NCBI GenBank assembly: GCA_002786715.1
Contig: PCTW01000023.1
Location: forward strand, 34,109 to 73,221
Length of the DNA: 39,113 nt
Reading direction: 5' to 3'
Source: Bdellovibrio sp. CG22_combo_CG10-13_8_21_14_all_39_27
GTDB lineage: Bacteria; Bdellovibrionota; Bacteriovoracia; Bacteriovoracales; Bacteriovoracaceae
Each line of letters starts with the position of its first letter. The stretch's first letter is position 1. A program made the position numbers and the translations under genes. Below, piece after piece: positions 1-12,824 of this stretch. A model generated the notes under the pieces. It worked only from the letters and a program-made list of their open reading frames with translations. It was not told where the DNA came from and searched no databases.

Positions 1-1259
1 ATTTTGATTATGGCTATGAAGCGCCAAAGAAAAATGATGAGCATCCCATTCGCATTTATACCGAGATGGCCAATTCTCCTTATAACTCAAAATATAAGTT
101 GGTTAAAATTGGATTGAAGACCAGAGAGTTTTTGGCTGAGAAACGTCCCGCTTCGAACCTTGTCTTTTTGATCGATGTGTCTGGTTCTATGTCAGATGCC
201 AACAAGCTTCCCTTAGTAAAAGAAGCGATGAAGATGATGGTTCGCAAAATGGATAAGAAAGAAACCATCTCAATCGTGGTTTATGCCGGCGCTTCAGGAT
301 TAGTTCTTCCAGCTACAAGTGCTGATAATGTCACTGAGATTTTTGATTCTCTGAATAAGCTCAGTGCCGGTGGATCGACCAATGGGGGAGCGGGAATTGA
401 GTTGGCCTACAAAGTGGCGAAAGAGAACTTTATTCAGGAAGGAAACAATCGAGTGATCTTAGTTACTGATGGCGATTTCAATGTGGGGACTACTTCTCAG
501 GGGAGCTTAGTCGATGTGATTAAAGAGAAAGCGAAAGACAATATCTACTTAACAGTCTTAGGTGTTGGTATGGGGAACTATAAGGACTCTACACTTGAAA
601 AACTCTCTGCTTACGGCAATGGTAACTATGCTTATATCGACAGTCTGAGTGAAGCCAAGAAAGTCTTAATTGAGGATCGATTTAAAACACTGCACGCCAT
701 GGCCAAAGATGTGAAGATTCAGGTTGAGTTTAATCCACAAAATGTTGAGGCCTATCGTTTGATTGGATATGAGAATCGCAAAATGGCGAATCAAGATTTT
801 AACAATGACAAGAAAGATGCTGGGGATATGGGAGCTGGACACACTGTGACCGCCTTTTATGAAGTTGTGCCAAAGGGCGTTTCAATTAATCTACCTGGAG
901 TTGATAAGTTGAAATATCAAAAAGCTGAGATCACTGAGGCAAAGGGAAAAAATACTGATGAATTGCTTACTGTAAAAATTCGTTACAAAGATCCAAAAGG
1001 TGATGCCAGCAAGTTAGTTGAGCAAGCTGTTAACAAAGAGGATCGTGCCTTTGAAAAAGCATCTTCCGACTTTAAGTTTGCGAGTGCAGTGGCTGGCTTT
1101 GCGATGATTTTACGAGAGGACGACAAGATCAACGATATCAATATGAGTCAGTTGATTGAAATCGCCAAAGAGAACAAAGGTGAAGACCCCAATGGTCATC
1201 GAGAAGAGTTTATTGAGAATATGAGCATTGCTCAAAAGATCGCTCGCAAAGTTCGGTAA
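1..1259 (+). CDS. YfbK-type von Willebrand factor A domain protein, 5' truncated
   Basis: The reading frame is open from base 3 through an internal ATG at 66, and the residues before that ATG still match the YfbK N-terminal region (FDYGYEAPKKNDEHP), so the gene starts outside the window. The VWA domain carries a full MIDAS metal site: DVSGSMSD, then the Thr in GGSTNGG, then the Asp in VTDGDF. The C-terminal part has the DUF3520-like DAGDMGAGHTVTAFYEV motif. Family knowledge: YfbK-like proteins are VWA proteins, often exported or lipid-anchored, with no well-defined biochemical role. The upstream signal peptide cannot be seen here. A strong terminator follows the stop codon. Family call is firm; function is unknown. 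Confidence 0.9.
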   Translation, partial: FDYGYEAPKKNDEHPIRIYTEMANSPYNSKYKLVKIGLKTREFLAEKRPASNLVFLIDVSGSMSDANKLPLVKEAMKMMVRKMDKKETISIVVYAGASGLVLPATSADNVTEIFDSLNKLSAGGSTNGGAGIELAYKVAKENFIQEGNNRVILVTDGDFNVGTTSQGSLVDVIKEKAKDNIYLTVLGVGMGNYKDSTLEKLSAYGNGNYAYIDSLSEAKKVLIEDRFKTLHAMAKDVKIQVEFNPQNVEAYRLIGYENRKMANQDFNNDKKDAGDMGAGHTVTAFYEVVPKGVSINLPGVDKLKYQKAEITEAKGKNTDELLTVKIRYKDPKGDASKLVEQAVNKEDRAFEKASSDFKFASAVAGFAMILREDDKINDINMSQLIEIAKENKGEDPNGHREEFIENMSIAQKIARKVR

Positions 1260-5883: not shown

Positions 5884-6873
5884 ATGAAAACAACTCCGAT
5901 TGACTTCCAATGGCCAACTCAAGAACCCTTTCTCTTTTGTGTTCATCATTATGATTATTACCCTCGAGGGAACCAAAATTTGGGATTAGATGGCCACCAT
6001 TTTGGCGGGAGAAACATGGGGCAAGACTTTGAAATAAAGGATGGCTTTCGCCTTTACCATGGTCGAGAAATTCCTGGATTTCCAGTTCATCCTCATCGTG
6101 GATTTGAAACGATAACTATTGTGAGAAAGGGCTACGTTGATCACGCCGACTCTCTCGGGGCTGCAGGGCGCTATGGGGAAGGAGATGTTCAATGGATGAC
6201 AGCAGGGGCAGGTGTGCAACATTCAGAAATGTTTCCCTTGCTACATCAAGATCGCGAAAATACCTTAGAACTCTTTCAAATTTGGCTCAACCTACCACGC
6301 AAAAGTAAAATGGTTCCAGCCGATTTTAAAATGTTATGGGCCAATCAAATTCCTAAAATAGAAAAAGAGGGAATAGAAGTAAGTCTCATTTGCGGAAACT
6401 ATGACAACCAATCCTATTATCAAGCTCCTCAAAATAGCTGGGCCTCTGATTTAAATAATGAAGTACAAATTCTTTTAGTGAAAATGAAGGCCGGTACAAC
6501 ATTTAATTACTCAGAATCTAAGAACGCGACGAACCGTAGTCTCTATTTTTTCGTAGCAGATAAATTCAAGGTAAACAATGAAGTCATTTCTGGTAAGCAG
6601 GCGCTATTTTTGAATTCAAAAGAATCATTAATGGTTCAAAGTCTTGAAGAAGAAATTGAATTTCTTATTTTAGAAGCTTGTCCCATTGGAGAGCCAGTTT
6701 TTCAACACGGCCCTTTTGTGATGAATACTCGGGAAGAAATAGTACAAACCTTTAATGATTATCAGAAAACGCAATTTGGTGGGTGGCCTTGGTCGAGATC
6801 AGATATGATCCATGGGGAAAAAATCGAAAGATTTGCAAAATACCCAAATGGAAAAATTGAAAAGCCTGACTAG
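5884..6873 (+). CDS. Pirin family protein
   Basis: A 329-aa cupin-fold protein. I place the start at ATG 5884 (MKTTPIDFQWPTQ); the frame is open upstream to 5746 but that stretch is not pirin-like. The metal site is intact: HPH in FPVHPHRGFET (H69, H71) and H113/E115 in GVQHSEMFP, with the spacing of the pirin Fe-binding site. Pirins are quercetinase-like or regulatory proteins, and the in vivo substrate is unknown here. It converges on and overlaps by 4 bases with the methyltransferase-glyoxalase gene. Confidence 0.9.
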   Translation: MKTTPIDFQWPTQEPFLFCVHHYDYYPRGNQNLGLDGHHFGGRNMGQDFEIKDGFRLYHGREIPGFPVHPHRGFETITIVRKGYVDHADSLGAAGRYGEGDVQWMTAGAGVQHSEMFPLLHQDRENTLELFQIWLNLPRKSKMVPADFKMLWANQIPKIEKEGIEVSLICGNYDNQSYYQAPQNSWASDLNNEVQILLVKMKAGTTFNYSESKNATNRSLYFFVADKFKVNNEVISGKQALFLNSKESLMVQSLEEEIEFLILEACPIGEPVFQHGPFVMNTREEIVQTFNDYQKTQFGGWPWSRSDMIHGEKIERFAKYPNGKIEKPD

Positions 6874-7853
6874 ACTTTTTTGAGATACTTTCCTTCGAAT
6901 CCTATGACATGTCCCATTGGATCTATGAGCTGGCATATTCCAAAATAGTCATTTATTGATAGAGGCCCTCGATAAAGAGCTGCACCCTTTTTCAAAAAGG
7001 GTTCAATCGCATTTAATAAGTCTTCAACAAGCCAATAACCGATACTTCCACCTGTCGATGTTGGGGATTTTTCATCAGCAGGGTGAAAATTAAGAAAAGA
7101 GTCACCGATCTGAAAAGAGGCAAAGAATTCGTCTTGCTCAATTGGGGGGTAACCGAGGACAGATTGATAAAACTCCACACATTTCTTTATATCTTTCGTG
7201 AATACGAGTTGAGAATTGAGCTTTAAAATCTTATTGTCTGACAAATTTTTTTCAAAGACAAAGTTGTCCCAAATAATTCCAGATCGAGCGGATTCAATTT
7301 GTTCTTCGTGAAATTTTAATCTAGCACCTAATTGTTCGAACAGTTGAATGAGTATCTTTGGCTTTATATAATTATAGAGTCGCTCATCATGTTCTCTTAT
7401 CAAATCATCGGTGTGATCAGGTCTTGGTTTTCTTATGCTTAAAAAGATTCTTCCACCTGGGCGAGTAATACGAATGATATTAAAGACTGATTCATGTAAA
7501 TGTTCTTGAGGAATGTGCATTAGCACTGCACATAAAAGCAAATTACTAAATTTATTATCTGTTGTTTGTGATTCTAATCCAGGAAGAGCATCTTGATAAA
7601 TGGGGACACCTTCCAAAAAGTGCCGACAATGTTCAACAAAGGCAGGCACTGGATCCATACCTTCAACGATGAAGCCTGATCCTGAAAGATAAGCAAGATC
7701 TCGTCCACTGGCGCAACCGATATCTAATGTGAGCTCCTTGGGATGAAAAAAAGTCGCAATGAGTTCGTAAACTCTTCTCGGTTTTACGCTTTTATAGTTG
7801 TCGATAAAAACATGCGCATCTTGTTGGTAGCGCTCAATCGTCTGTTTATCCAT
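6870..7853 (-). CDS. SAM methyltransferase fused to a glyoxalase (VOC) domain
   Basis: A 327-aa two-domain protein. Residues about 10-200 form a class I methyltransferase: LTLDIGCASGRD (42-52) is the SAM loop, then MDPVP, LLLCAVLMHIP and RPGGRIFLSIR. Residues about 212-325 form a glyoxalase/bleomycin-resistance (VOC) domain: QLVFTKDIKKCVEFYQSVLGY, then IGDSFLNFH and LIDPMGHVIGFEG. VOC domains bind metals or small hydrophobic ligands, so the fusion could methylate a toxic small molecule. The methyltransferase resembles stand-alone SAM enzymes often annotated as methyltransferase type 11/12. A perfect palindrome at 7895-7910 lies 42 bases before the start. Confidence 0.82.
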   Translation of the reverse strand: MDKQTIERYQQDAHVFIDNYKSVKPRRVYELIATFFHPKELTLDIGCASGRDLAYLSGSGFIVEGMDPVPAFVEHCRHFLEGVPIYQDALPGLESQTTDNKFSNLLLCAVLMHIPQEHLHESVFNIIRITRPGGRIFLSIRKPRPDHTDDLIREHDERLYNYIKPKILIQLFEQLGARLKFHEEQIESARSGIIWDNFVFEKNLSDNKILKLNSQLVFTKDIKKCVEFYQSVLGYPPIEQDEFFASFQIGDSFLNFHPADEKSPTSTGGSIGYWLVEDLLNAIEPFLKKGAALYRGPLSINDYFGICQLIDPMGHVIGFEGKYLKKV

Positions 7854-8113: not shown

Positions 8114-8746
8114 ATGAAGAAAATGATGTTTACAATGTTAATTGGTTTAATTTCACTTGGGGCACATGCTGATAGTGGAGCTGGCGGCGAACTCACCGAT
8201 TACTGGAATTCTCGCTACATTATTCAAGACAAAATTTCTGAACAAGAAGGAATTCCAAATACTGGCGTTTCGACTGGGTATCAAACTCATTATGTGAAAA
8301 TCATAAACGTCTGCCAAGAGGACAATGAAGTGAGAACAATTAAGCCCATTAGCACATGTGCTGAATGGGGTTATAAGCCATTATCTCGGGCGCAATGTAA
8401 TAATCGAGACCAAACATTTCCTTGTTATGATCGCGATGAAAGAGTTTGTTCTAAAACAGTTTTGGCGACCGGAAAAGCACCTATTAAGTATAAGCAACAA
8501 ACATGTGCAAAACTTACTGATATAGAATCACGTGAGTGGAGAAGAACTCATGATGATGACCGTTTCAAAGATGACTACCCAAATTGCTCTGTGTTCAAAA
8601 CATTTAACGCTACAAAGAGAACTTCATTCACTTTCAATATCATTAAGAAAGTTGGTGAAAATCACCCTAACTACGAAAGACGTTTCAATGGCGACTTCCT
8701 TTTCGAACTTGATTTCGATATCCCTCAATGTGAAGCCGCTCTTTAG
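8114..8746 (+). CDS. Secreted Cys-containing protein, unknown function
   Basis: A 210-aa protein. The ATG at 8114 is preferred over an upstream one because it has a good ribosome-binding site (TTGGAGG) and opens a signal peptide (MKKMMFTMLIGLISLGAHA, then DSGAGGELTDYW). The mature chain has eight Cys, mostly in the middle (around ISTCAEWGY, RAQCNNRDQTFPCYDRDERVC), and is likely disulfide-bonded. No domain recognised. It is followed by a strong terminator, and GTTAAC sites lie on both sides, so it is a candidate target of the membrane regulator encoded next. Confidence 0.7.
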   Translation: MKKMMFTMLIGLISLGAHADSGAGGELTDYWNSRYIIQDKISEQEGIPNTGVSTGYQTHYVKIINVCQEDNEVRTIKPISTCAEWGYKPLSRAQCNNRDQTFPCYDRDERVCSKTVLATGKAPIKYKQQTCAKLTDIESREWRRTHDDDRFKDDYPNCSVFKTFNATKRTSFTFNIIKKVGENHPNYERRFNGDFLFELDFDIPQCEAAL

Positions 8747-8776: not shown

Positions 8777-8808
8777 AAAGGCCCAAGCATTCACTTGGGC
8801 CTTTCTTT
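8777..8808 (+). terminator. Terminator of the secreted gene at 8114
   Basis: AAAGGCCCAAG and CTTGGGCCTTT form a perfect 11-bp stem with a 6-base loop (CATTCA), followed by ctttac. Confidence 0.9.
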
Positions 8809-9057: not shown

Positions 9058-10329
9058 ATGGAACAAATTATTTCAGAAAGTCTAAATAAGTACCTCGGTT
9101 CGACCAAGTTGAGCATGGGACAGATTGCTAGCCGCTGGGGAGTTTCAACTCCTTTATTATCACAAATTAAAAGCGGTAAGAAAAAGGCTGGTTTAGAGCT
9201 TGGGTTAAAAATTTTAAGAGAAGCTGGTGTTGAACTTACTGAAAGACAAAAGTGGCTTGAAGCAAGAAAGACCGAAGGCGAAGAAAGTGCCAAAATCTTT
9301 GAAGACTTGAAAAAGGAACGAACTGAGTTTCGCTTACAAAAGAATATCTGCGATCATTTGACTTCAAATCCTATATTAACGGATCTTTTTTTAGATATTT
9401 CTCTGATGAAAGAGAAAGGTTTTTCGTGGAACGGAATACTTAAAAACTATGGCGAATATGGCTTAGAACAAATTGATTTTCTCATGTCTTCAGGGTTAGT
9501 TCGAAAGGAATGCGATCGCTATTATATTATTCAGGACAAATTACCGCATGCTTTAAATCCAGAAAATTCATTTGGTCTTATGTCGGGAATCTTTGAAATA
9601 TTTAAACGCAAAGTGAAGAACGAAGATTTTCGAGGTGAATTCCATTTTGACATCACTGATGTTAGTCAAGAAGGCTACGAAGAACTAAAAAAATTAAATA
9701 TTGAATATACTAAAAAGATGGTGGCCATTATTAAGAATAATGAAAAGCCACGTGTGACCGGGGGAATTAGAGTGATTGCGCAGAATTTAGTTGGAATCTT
9801 GAAAGTCTTAATTGTTGTTGTTTTGACAGGATATTTTGGCCAAGAATCTTATGCCCAAGGGAATGGATTAACTGGTGGAGCATCTGGAAAAGTGATTTCA
9901 ATTGATCAAATTAATGTAGGTGATCTCTTTGGAGTTGCAAGGCAATCCTTTTCTTATGGAAAAACTCCTCGAAGCATCGTTGTCGATAGTGAAAGAAAGC
10001 TTAAAGTCGAGTTTAAGCCTGCTTCTCTTGCCACTCCTCTTTTTGAAAGCAAAGAGGATGCTATAGAAGGAGCAGTAAAAGTGAATCAAATGTTCAAATC
10101 AGGTTCTATTTCGAGAGAAGAAGCAAGAACTTTGGCCAATCGATATCAAATCCATTGTGGTAGTTCTGGATCTGGTAATGGTATGGCGATGAATGAAATC
10201 GAAAGGCAAATCAGAAAAGGGAGCATTGTCGCGATAGGATTTACTGTCGAGCAAAGTTTTACACCTGATGGGAAACCACTTTATCGGGCCATCGGTAATT
10301 ATCTACTTCCCTGCGCGACTAAAGACTAA
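9058..10329 (+). CDS. Membrane-anchored HTH regulator with a periplasmic C-terminal domain
   Basis: A 423-aa protein with three parts. Residues 15-57 read as an XRE-type helix-turn-helix (LSMGQIASRWGVSTPLLSQIKSG). Residues 85-225 resemble the TIGR02147/DUF4423 regulators (FLDISLMKEKGFSWN, DFLMSSGLVRKECDRYYI, then FDITDVSQEGYEELKKLNIEYTKK). Residues 239-260 are a single hydrophobic span (VIAQNLVGILKVLIVVVLTGYF) followed by ESYAQG, which also looks like a signal-peptidase site. About 160 residues then lie outside, with Cys in IHCGSSGSG and LPCATKD. The layout is ToxR-like: DNA binding inside, sensing outside. If cleaved, the C-terminal part would be released. The ribosome-binding site is weak (AGGTATAAGTA). 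The output domain has no family I recognise. Confidence 0.75.
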   Translation: MEQIISESLNKYLGSTKLSMGQIASRWGVSTPLLSQIKSGKKKAGLELGLKILREAGVELTERQKWLEARKTEGEESAKIFEDLKKERTEFRLQKNICDHLTSNPILTDLFLDISLMKEKGFSWNGILKNYGEYGLEQIDFLMSSGLVRKECDRYYIIQDKLPHALNPENSFGLMSGIFEIFKRKVKNEDFRGEFHFDITDVSQEGYEELKKLNIEYTKKMVAIIKNNEKPRVTGGIRVIAQNLVGILKVLIVVVLTGYFGQESYAQGNGLTGGASGKVISIDQINVGDLFGVARQSFSYGKTPRSIVVDSERKLKVEFKPASLATPLFESKEDAIEGAVKVNQMFKSGSISREEARTLANRYQIHCGSSGSGNGMAMNEIERQIRKGSIVAIGFTVEQSFTPDGKPLYRAIGNYLLPCATKD

Positions 10330-10382: not shown

Positions 10383-11027
10383 TTAAAGTTGCTCTTGTAT
10401 TTGCTTCCTTAAAACTTCTGGATCAAATTCGCGAAGTGGAATTCCGTTGATGAAGAAGCTTGGGGTACCTCTTACATTGAGAGTGACGCTATCAAGCTCA
10501 TCTTGCTGAATCACATCGGCAATTGCTGGATCCTGCATATCGACTTTAAGTTTTTCAATGTCAGCTCCGCTCTCGGCTAGATATTTCCATAAAATATCAA
10601 TTTGAGGATTGTGGTGATCTCCCCATTCTGGCTGATAATAAAATGCGACTTCTAAGACTTCCCAAAACTTACTTTGTTTGCGAGCAGCTTCAAGAATTGA
10701 GATCACATACTTTGAGTTACCGTGATAGGCCTTGTAGCGAACGACTAATTTAACTTGATTCGGAAATTCTGCCATGATTTTTTTGACGTAGGGATAAAAC
10801 GCCCTACAGCTTTCGCACTCAGGATCAAGAAACTCTACCAGAGTTACCTTTGCTGAATCTGGTCCCATCGTAGGTGAATGAGGTCTTACATAAACTTGAC
10901 TCTGATCTTGAGCAAGATCATTCATGCTCTCCGTATGTCGTGTTTGATAGTAAAATTTCGCCACGAAAAAAATAAGGATAATGCTTAAGAGAGTTGAGAA
11001 AAGGATAATTTTTTTCTGATTGTTCAT
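10383..11027 (-). CDS. DsbA/BdbD-like thioredoxin-fold thiol oxidoreductase
   Basis: A 214-aa protein with an N-terminal membrane anchor or signal (MNNQKKIILFSTLLSIILIFFVAKFYYQ). The thioredoxin fold is read from VTLVEFLDPECESCRAFYPYVKKI, with active site CESC, and the cis-Pro loop VRGTPSFFING. The pairing with a DsbB-like gene marks it as a periplasmic disulfide oxidant of the BdbD type. Its ATG overlaps the upstream gene stop (ATGA, 4 bases). Clients could include the many Cys-containing secreted proteins encoded nearby. Confidence 0.88.
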   Translation of the reverse strand: MNNQKKIILFSTLLSIILIFFVAKFYYQTRHTESMNDLAQDQSQVYVRPHSPTMGPDSAKVTLVEFLDPECESCRAFYPYVKKIMAEFPNQVKLVVRYKAYHGNSKYVISILEAARKQSKFWEVLEVAFYYQPEWGDHHNPQIDILWKYLAESGADIEKLKVDMQDPAIADVIQQDELDSVTLNVRGTPSFFINGIPLREFDPEVLRKQIQEQL

Positions 11028-11536
11028 GCTTCTTTATTCCTCAAAATTAAAAAACTTATAATGTTGATTAGGGTAAATGCAGTAAGTGATAAAAAGGGAA
11101 TTGTGATAAATCCCAACCATTCAATATTGACATCAGCACAAGAAAGACCAGCTTGGCAGGGGGATAAATTCTCAGGAATGACACCCCAATAAATTAAATT
11201 ATGGTAGGCGGCAATGATCCAGCCAAGGATGCTTAAACTTAAAGTATAGCGAATGACTGTGCTGTTTTGATCAAAGAGTGAAGTGAAAAAAATGAGAACG
11301 AGTGGGTACATACAAATTCTTTGGTACCAACAAAGAATACATGGAGGAAAACCCATGACCTCGCTAAAAAACAGGCTACCTAAAGTAGCCACGAGGCTGA
11401 TGAGCCAGCTAATAAAAAGTTGAGACCAACGAGACATGCGGTAATTAAACCACATTTTGTTCACTTTTTGGTTATACATTCGCTCCATTTTTGTTTTGTG
11501 AACAATGCGTCGTAAGATGTTTTCTTTTTTGACCAA
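11024..11536 (-). CDS. DsbB/BdbC-like disulfide bond formation protein
   Basis: Up to 170 aa with four membrane spans. Redox pairs are visible: PPCILCWYQRICMYPL (CxxC after span 1) and SPCQAGLSCADV (second loop). The family passes electrons from DsbA to quinone. The start is uncertain: the longest frame uses a TTG at 11536, while the ATG at 11437 (MSRWSQLF) gives about 137 aa, close to the usual BdbC length of about 140. Neither has a clear ribosome-binding site. Forms an operon with the DsbA-like gene. Confidence 0.85.
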   Translation of the reverse strand: MVKKENILRRIVHKTKMERMYNQKVNKMWFNYRMSRWSQLFISWLISLVATLGSLFFSEVMGFPPCILCWYQRICMYPLVLIFFTSLFDQNSTVIRYTLSLSILGWIIAAYHNLIYWGVIPENLSPCQAGLSCADVNIEWLGFITIPFLSLTAFTLINIISFLILRNKEA

Positions 11537-11915: not shown

Positions 11916-12824
11916 ATGAAGAAGATTTCATTATTAAAAGTTTCAATGTTTGTTCTCACATTTTCTGCACTGTCATGTGTGCCACAGGATCCTTGCGCCA
12001 AGTCTGGTGGAACAGTAACAACTGGAGCCGCGACGACTGGTGATAAAGCAAGTTGTACCGATCCAAATTCTGGAAGTGATGGGGGAACAGTAACTCCACC
12101 TCCAGTAAATCAAGATCCAACTCCTCCAAGTCCAACTCCAATTACTGGAGGCGATCCTTGGAACCAACCTTGGAAGAGAAGCGATACTTCAATTGTCATT
12201 GATGCCTATGAACTTAATGGAATTGATTGGGATAAAATGGCGACTGATAAGAAAATGGTTGGCGTTATCCATCGATCGAGTATCGGTCTAACCGTTGATA
12301 AGCAATACAAGGCGAGAAGAGCTATCGCTAGTGAAAGAGGATACCTTTGGGGTGCCTACCATCTTGGAAGAAGAGGTGACACTATTAAGCAAGCGGATCT
12401 TTTCCTTTCTCTAGTGGGCAATGACCCTGACGCTTTAATGGTTCTCGACCTTGAGGATACAGCTTCAAGTAGTTTTATGAGTATTGATGAAGCGGTAGTC
12501 TTTATGGATTATGTCTATGAGCAAACAGGTCGTATCCCTGTGGTTTATGCCAATCATTCAACTACTCAGAAAGTAAATCAATTGCTTAAAAGTAATCCGC
12601 TCTTTCCTCAGGCCAAGCTCTGGTATGCTCGCTTTAAATCGAGTGTGACTGATTTCCCAGTGGGGATTTGGGACAATTATTTCCTTTGGCAATTCTCAAG
12701 TGAGATCAATTGTACTAAGACCGGATCATGTCTTTACAACGTACCAGGAACCTCGAGCGATATGGACGTTAACGTCTTTAATGGCTCGGCTACTGATTTA
12801 CGTATGATGTGGAACAACGATTAA
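11916..12824 (+). CDS. GH25 lysozyme-like lipoprotein
   Basis: A 302-aa protein. Lipoprotein signal MKKISLLKVSMFVLTFSALSC with Cys21, then a Pro/Thr/Gly-rich linker (about 22-80), then a GH25 domain (92-290). Four acidic residues expected in GH25 are present: D96 (VIDAYELNGIDW), D178 and E180 (VLDLED) and D284 (SDMDVNVFNG); the LWQFSS strand is also visible. GH25 enzymes cut the N-acetylmuramic acid-GlcNAc bond of peptidoglycan. Predatory Bdellovibrio encode exported lysozymes for prey wall processing, so such a role is plausible here but only inferred. The linker suggests reach from the membrane into the wall. Confidence 0.88.
   Translation: MKKISLLKVSMFVLTFSALSCVPQDPCAKSGGTVTTGAATTGDKASCTDPNSGSDGGTVTPPPVNQDPTPPSPTPITGGDPWNQPWKRSDTSIVIDAYELNGIDWDKMATDKKMVGVIHRSSIGLTVDKQYKARRAIASERGYLWGAYHLGRRGDTIKQADLFLSLVGNDPDALMVLDLEDTASSSFMSIDEAVVFMDYVYEQTGRIPVVYANHSTTQKVNQLLKSNPLFPQAKLWYARFKSSVTDFPVGIWDNYFLWQFSSEINCTKTGSCLYNVPGTSSDMDVNVFNGSATDLRMMWNND

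Follow-up and report, generated by a model that had tools for sequence, protein, structure and literature searches.

The gene at positions 9058..10329 (+ strand) of the window, i.e. the whole 39,113-nt stretch of DNA analyzed here, encodes a putative transcriptional regulator which appears to continue, through one hydrophobic span, into an exported domain. This locus raises two questions: how a regulator of this kind came to carry such a domain, and whether the span acts as a membrane anchor or as a signal peptide.

Architecture, kinship and conservation of the fused protein

The gene is complete (ATG start, 423 aa), and its product is best described as a tethered regulator of XRE/winged-helix build that carries an exported domain fused to it, with all its parts encoded on the + strand. 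Residues 1-66 (9058..9255) form an XRE-type helix-turn-helix: in the structural model they match the XRE structures HipB, ClgR and ComR with a Foldseek probability of ~1.0 (Z 6.5-7.0), and the best sensible N-terminal Pfam signal is a weak one to HTH_3 (E 0.07). Residues 87-247 (9316..9798) make up a DUF4423/TIGR02147-like part, identified by hhalign to soluble relatives, of which residues ~87-166 are modelled as an ArsR/MarR-type winged helix (Z 10.5 to ArsR). The exported domain, termed DomA, covers residues 279-423 (9892..10326) and belongs to no Pfam family. Sequence and models taken together, the 423-aa protein has the predicted architecture of a transmembrane transcription regulator, namely a DNA-binding fold, one span and an exported C-terminal domain. 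The sequence-only reading had proposed an XRE helix-turn-helix, a DUF4423-like middle, one span and a C-terminal part with two Cys, the last regarded as uncharacterized; all these parts were recovered, and the predicted exported domain matches no known family.

Structure modelling drew only on proteins of the window and of related loci. The full-length model is poor overall (pLDDT 63), including around the span, and DomA modelled alone reaches a pLDDT of 79 and a pTM of 0.73. The best matches in a fold search with DomA were phage tail-terminator proteins, but their Z of 5.1 was tied with many unrelated entries, which indicates a common arrangement rather than kinship. The viral contigs searched contained no relative. 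Pfam and NCBIfam contain no match above cut-off for the 423-aa regulator, for DomA or for the neighboring DomB gene (see below), and a sequence search of solved structures returned only XRE helix-turn-helix matches for the regulator part and none for DomA. The OmpR-type winged helix (Trans_reg_C, PF00486) is absent from the Pfam matches of the regulator at E<=1.

The sequence-only reading called the protein TIGR02147-like. The curated TIGR02147 and DUF4423 (PF14394) models do not match it at E<=1, and it is not among the family matches of these models in its own genome. Nevertheless, when the tethered N-terminal half is aligned by hhalign to a set of 12 soluble relatives, the probability is 98.3 (E 1.4e-14) over 227 columns, and the two of these relatives that were scanned match both TIGR02147 and DUF4423 well above cut-offs (132 and 90 bits for one, 130 and 134 bits for the other). 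The comparison with a closer soluble clade is stronger still (probability 99.6, E 3.7e-24), and as these soluble proteins align right to their C-terminus, they stop where the tethered span starts. In a tree of 70 N-terminal halves, the tethered clade is joined to TIGR02147-type proteins via intermediate soluble clades. Thus, the label holds as regards homology, and sequence comparison indicates a kinship that is real but distant rather than curated membership. TIGR02147 proteins reach up to ~20 copies per genome in these bacteria. In a literature search that most subscription journals fall outside, TIGR02147 was named nowhere and DUF4423 only in a Bdellovibrio proteome table.

The span covers residues 244-266 (LVGILKVLIVVVLTGYFGQESYA; 9787..9855) and is the only one in the protein: its peak 19-residue window (239-257) has a mean Kyte-Doolittle value of 2.30, versus 0.73 for the next highest elsewhere, and 35 of 2000 shuffled sequences score as high. 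A predicted signal peptidase I site, SYA266^Q267 (9853..9858), follows, and then a Gly-rich motif, GNGLTGGASGK (9859..9891; consensus GG[LIV]xGGxS), in which alignments A1 and A4 show little or no variation at G270 and G273. The 157 residues beyond the site contain exactly two Cys, C367 (10156-10158) and C419 (10312-10314), both invariant in 16/16 aligned copies. Tethered homologues have a common joint, in which a GGxRxxxQxL-like stretch is followed by a short core, a polar stretch, small-x-Ala and a GGxxGG-like motif. The hydrophobic core has 10 residues in the window protein (247-256) and 10-12 across the homologues. Small-x-Ala precedes the Gly-rich stretch in 21 of 22 of them (genome G034 has SSMS instead of AxA). 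The sequence-only reading had noted that SYAQG also fits a signal peptidase site. Net charge is +2 on the N-flank and -1 on the C-flank of the window span, and it is higher on the N-flank in all tethered homologues except one. With its short core, positive N-flank and small-x-Ala, the span resembles a signal peptide placed inside the protein. We infer from the positive-inside charge bias an N-in/C-out topology and, from the motif, a signal peptidase cleavage of the tethered regulator; signal-peptide and topology calls follow heuristic rules of this analysis.

A protein search of 97 genomes detected full-length homologues (37-48% identity) in six other genomes of Bacteriovoracaceae, as well as paralogues that share the N-terminal half but carry a different exported part. 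With the results of a 129-genome profile search and of scanning named genomes added, the tethered set comprises ~22 proteins, which come from assemblies of Bacteriovoracaceae, Halobacteriovorax and Bdellovibrionales and all have the same span between the DUF4423-like and C-terminal parts. The DNA-pattern scan for tethered relatives used a narrower alignment, A1 being too diverse. All tethered proteins form one clade in the tree (support 100/98), as expected for a fused form of single origin at the sequence level. In close homologue pairs, dN/dS through the span is 0.04-0.22, which argues that the fused frame is real and used.

Some members of the set depart from the common form. One regulator within the tethered clade (genome G114, L065:6382-7158) has secondarily lost the span and the exported part, ends as a soluble protein of 258 aa and has kept a conserved neighborhood; no remnant of the lost parts is visible 3' of the gene. 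A homologue in another genome (L071:5907-6779, G117:C131) lacks most of the winged-helix middle, so that the helix-turn-helix start runs into the DUF4423-like end and the span; it is probably a decaying copy. Isolate AH-541-E20 (G057; L006/L020/L127) has an in-frame TAA inside the exported domain, which is intact in its close relative G016.

Soluble regulators and their secreted partners

We gathered 82 soluble relatives, 54 from the closer clade and 28 true TIGR02147 matches from across the phylum (L072-L125, L154-L183). A same-strand gene starts within 40 bp downstream of 74 of these 82 regulators, most commonly with a -4 (ATGA) overlap (45 cases). A signal peptide was called in 70 of the 74 downstream neighbors (Fisher 7e-7 and 1e-4) by a heuristic that is lax, its background being 45-50% (45% of other ORFs score). 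By contrast, only two of the 22 tethered genes are closely followed by any gene on their own strand (p 5e-13), a scarcity that is expected if the partner is carried inside the protein.

Sequence relationships link the two forms more directly. In the sister group of tethered proteins (type B), the exported domain is homologous to unfused secreted partners. In particular, the secreted partner of soluble regulator L124 (L124:1620-2111) matches this domain at the first pass (E 2e-6), and alignment A2 shows a signal peptide, GGDSGG, W, P and LC-ERIRT in the same order in both; the common motifs are GG-SGG and VxxxLCxxxExIRT. The main gap concerns type A, as no soluble regulator was found with DomA as its direct downstream partner; only type-B partners were.

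The partners of true TIGR02147 regulators (L155-L183) present a motif of their own. A GGxxxGN / GTDTGNP-like sequence lies right after the predicted cleavage site in 18 of 24 TIGR02147 partners, versus nine of 225 other secreted proteins, and may be a sorting or recognition motif. Some of these partners are lipoprotein-like. The pairing of a TIGR02147 regulator with a secreted protein seems to be a general module in the phylum, and one that has not been described.

As soluble relatives have secreted neighbors, tethered ones mostly lack them and the type-B domain is homologous to a partner, we consider with a probability of roughly 0.7 that the gene arose long ago by an in-frame joining of the two genes of a phylum-wide module, one for a TIGR02147-like regulator and one for a secreted protein, the signal peptide of the partner having been kept as the joint. 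The architecture, its conservation, the single-origin fusion, the unfused counterparts and the conserved cleavage motif are all established at the level of sequence. The regulator of G114 counts against the fusion reading, since it belongs to the tethered clade but has neither span nor exported part.

Under the fusion reading, the tethered protein would probably insert N-in/C-out, with its two DNA-binding folds in the cytoplasm, and its C-terminal domain would be exported via Sec, where a C367-C419 disulfide presumably forms. Signal peptidase I would then cut after A266, yielding a free exported protein and leaving the regulator attached to the membrane by a short stub, from which a site-2 protease (M50) could release it. 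This genome encodes one type I signal peptidase plus M50 site-2 proteases. Cleavage might be constitutive, as it is in ordinary secreted proteins, or might depend on the binding of a ligand or of a partner, for instance DomB. A more tentative proposal is that of a regulator class joined to its own secreted partner by a signal peptide, in which the export machinery and signal peptidase would provide the signal-transduction step, export or ligand-gated cleavage of the cargo deciding between a tethered and a free regulator.

Neighboring genes and alternative readings of the joint

Upstream of the regulator lies the gene of a free secreted protein, DomB (8114..8746, + strand; 210 aa, with a signal peptide). 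The genome has a second tethered regulator (G000:C77), and profile searches and alignment A2 show homology between its exported part and DomB, with a first-pass profile E of 4.3e-5 and an iterated E of 1e-41 (genome match G000:C70:42225-42842). As a strong terminator-like hairpin (8777..8804, + strand; 11 pairs including six GC, identified by consensus match only) lies between them, the DomB gene and the regulator probably belong to separate transcripts. Free type-B genes are found near tethered loci in the window and in G034, G117, G137, G138, G143 and G127, and because of this adjacency exported parts and free type-B proteins may act together. In G137, the tethered regulator and the downstream free type-B gene are 218 bp apart, and in its sister genome G143 a transposase-like ORF (L067:4992-5876) lies between the two. 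Free secreted copies of DomA also exist: two in G033, one intact ORF each in G117 and G034, and a truncated-looking ORF in G117. In both G117 and G034, the intact copy immediately precedes a tethered gene and has the same orientation. A 102-aa secreted protein upstream in the G137 group is DomA-like by eye, but it was missed by the DomA profile and was not counted. Apart from such local secreted-protein genes, nothing is conserved in synteny across the homologous loci. Another ORF of the window (6870-7853) combines, by eye, a methyltransferase-like and a glyoxalase-like half.

The best surviving alternative is a stable regulator of ToxR type, in which an uncleaved anchor would hold the protein in the membrane, the exported domain would sense a ligand or DomB, and DNA would be bound from the membrane. 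We regard it as plausible, albeit somewhat improbable. The predicted N-in/C-out build is in its favor, and the DomB genes near the tethered loci of the window, G034, G117, G137, G138 and G127 recall the co-component pairs ToxR/ToxS and TcpP/TcpH (survey PMC10269533). However, a core of 10-12 residues, a polar c-region and AxA in 21/22 make the span resemble a signal peptide, and a plain anchor has no need to keep AxA. The sequence-only reading had suggested a ToxR-like build on another DNA-binding family: the XRE/winged-helix part, the span and the exported part bear out the build, whereas a ToxR-like sensor is not favored over dual processing. As soluble relatives form two-gene modules, which are fused into one in this gene, dual processing into a regulator and a secreted protein is no less likely than a sensor of ToxR type.

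A further alternative, of which we are doubtful, is a switch resembling that of RsiV. In RsiV, signal peptidase cuts a conserved AXA after the single span only once lysozyme has bound the exported domain (PMC4183432). Here, the AXA would be protected from signal peptidase for as long as the exported domain has bound no ligand (one derived from prey, or DomB); upon binding, signal peptidase would cut, and a site-2 protease would free the DNA-binding part, with a change in transcription as a result. The order of the parts is that of RsiV, with a cytoplasmic part, one span, a conserved AXA and an exported domain (PMC4183432), and both kinds of protease are present in the genome. On the other hand, RsiV is an anti-sigma factor and does not bind DNA, and both gating and ligand are putative here. 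The RsiV precedent also bears on the fusion reading: AXA alone does not prove cleavage, and in RsiV it is blocked until the ligand binds.

Internal initiation, by which the gene would yield, besides the fused protein, a secreted DomA with a translation start of its own, is improbable. In the window, TTG-248 followed by Lys would make a canonical signal peptide start, but no start codon is conserved: several homologues (G000b, G044b, G119 and G117d) lack one in this region, and the ENEM codon present in others has been lost in the window.

Still less credence can be given to a redox sensor, which the sequence-only reading had guessed from the two Cys and the adjacent DsbA and DsbB genes. The two exported Cys are indeed invariant, and the genes are indeed present, a DsbA-like gene (10383-11027, - strand) 53 bp from the regulator and a DsbB-like gene (11024-11536, - strand). 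They are nonetheless convergent with the regulator and not co-transcribed with it, BLAST detected no counterpart of either in any of ten homologous neighborhoods, and the same Cys pair occurs in free secreted DomA copies. Because C367 and C419 are invariant in these free copies too, a structural disulfide looks like the simpler reading of the pair. Beside the dsb genes, a signal-peptide protein (11916-12824) has, on reading only, the look of a GH25-type muramidase.

The sequence-only reading would have been refuted by the lack of a span, but a single span stands out clearly. Finally, although in most of its relatives the regulator is encoded by a gene of its own, the idea raised at the outset that a sequence error had joined two genes is virtually eliminated and was already refuted, as independent assemblies carry the same fusion in ~22 homologues, which form a supported clade and are under purifying selection across the joint.

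Significance and comparison with known systems

The gene looks like a natural one-piece version, in a relative of the predatory Halobacteriovorax, of a little-studied pair of regulator and secreted partner. If so, the fused regulator class is the one-piece form of a phylum-wide, undescribed module of TIGR02147 regulator plus secreted protein, and this module may be a more general find than the fused gene. The TIGR02147 family would gain a testable functional frame, in which regulator and secreted cargo work together. The gene also suggests that signal peptidase could be a signalling protease for DNA-binding regulators in a Gram-negative lineage, a role known so far, to our knowledge, mainly for RsiV.

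Compared with TIGR02147 (Fsuc_second) and DUF4423 (PF14394) proteins, the regulator has the same XRE helix-turn-helix and winged-helix/DUF4423-like part, with profile homology over their full length, and true members in the phylum also adjoin a secreted-protein gene. It differs in being tethered, in its length of 423 aa and in having both a span and an exported domain, whereas the members matched here are mostly soluble and of ~250-310 aa. In Streptomyces, XRE regulator genes are routinely followed by a small DUF397 partner gene (PMC10364602, PMC6262351). The order of an XRE regulator gene and then a small partner gene is alike, but the partners described here are secreted proteins, and we claim no homology between the two systems.

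With regulators of the ToxR/TcpP/CadC type (PMC10269533), the window protein shares an N-terminal DNA-binding part, one span, an exported C-terminal domain and a possible partner. Unlike them, it has an XRE plus winged-helix part that is not OmpR-type, a signal-peptide-like span with AxA, and a domain drawn from a secreted family. With the anti-sigma factor RsiV (PMC4183432), it shares a single N-in span, an AXA site for signal peptidase that is conserved, and a sensor-like domain on the exported side, although it is a DNA-binding regulator instead of an anti-sigma factor and is unrelated in sequence. Small-x-Ala directly after a single span, a feature of RsiV-type substrates, is predicted in all but one of the 22 tethered homologues.
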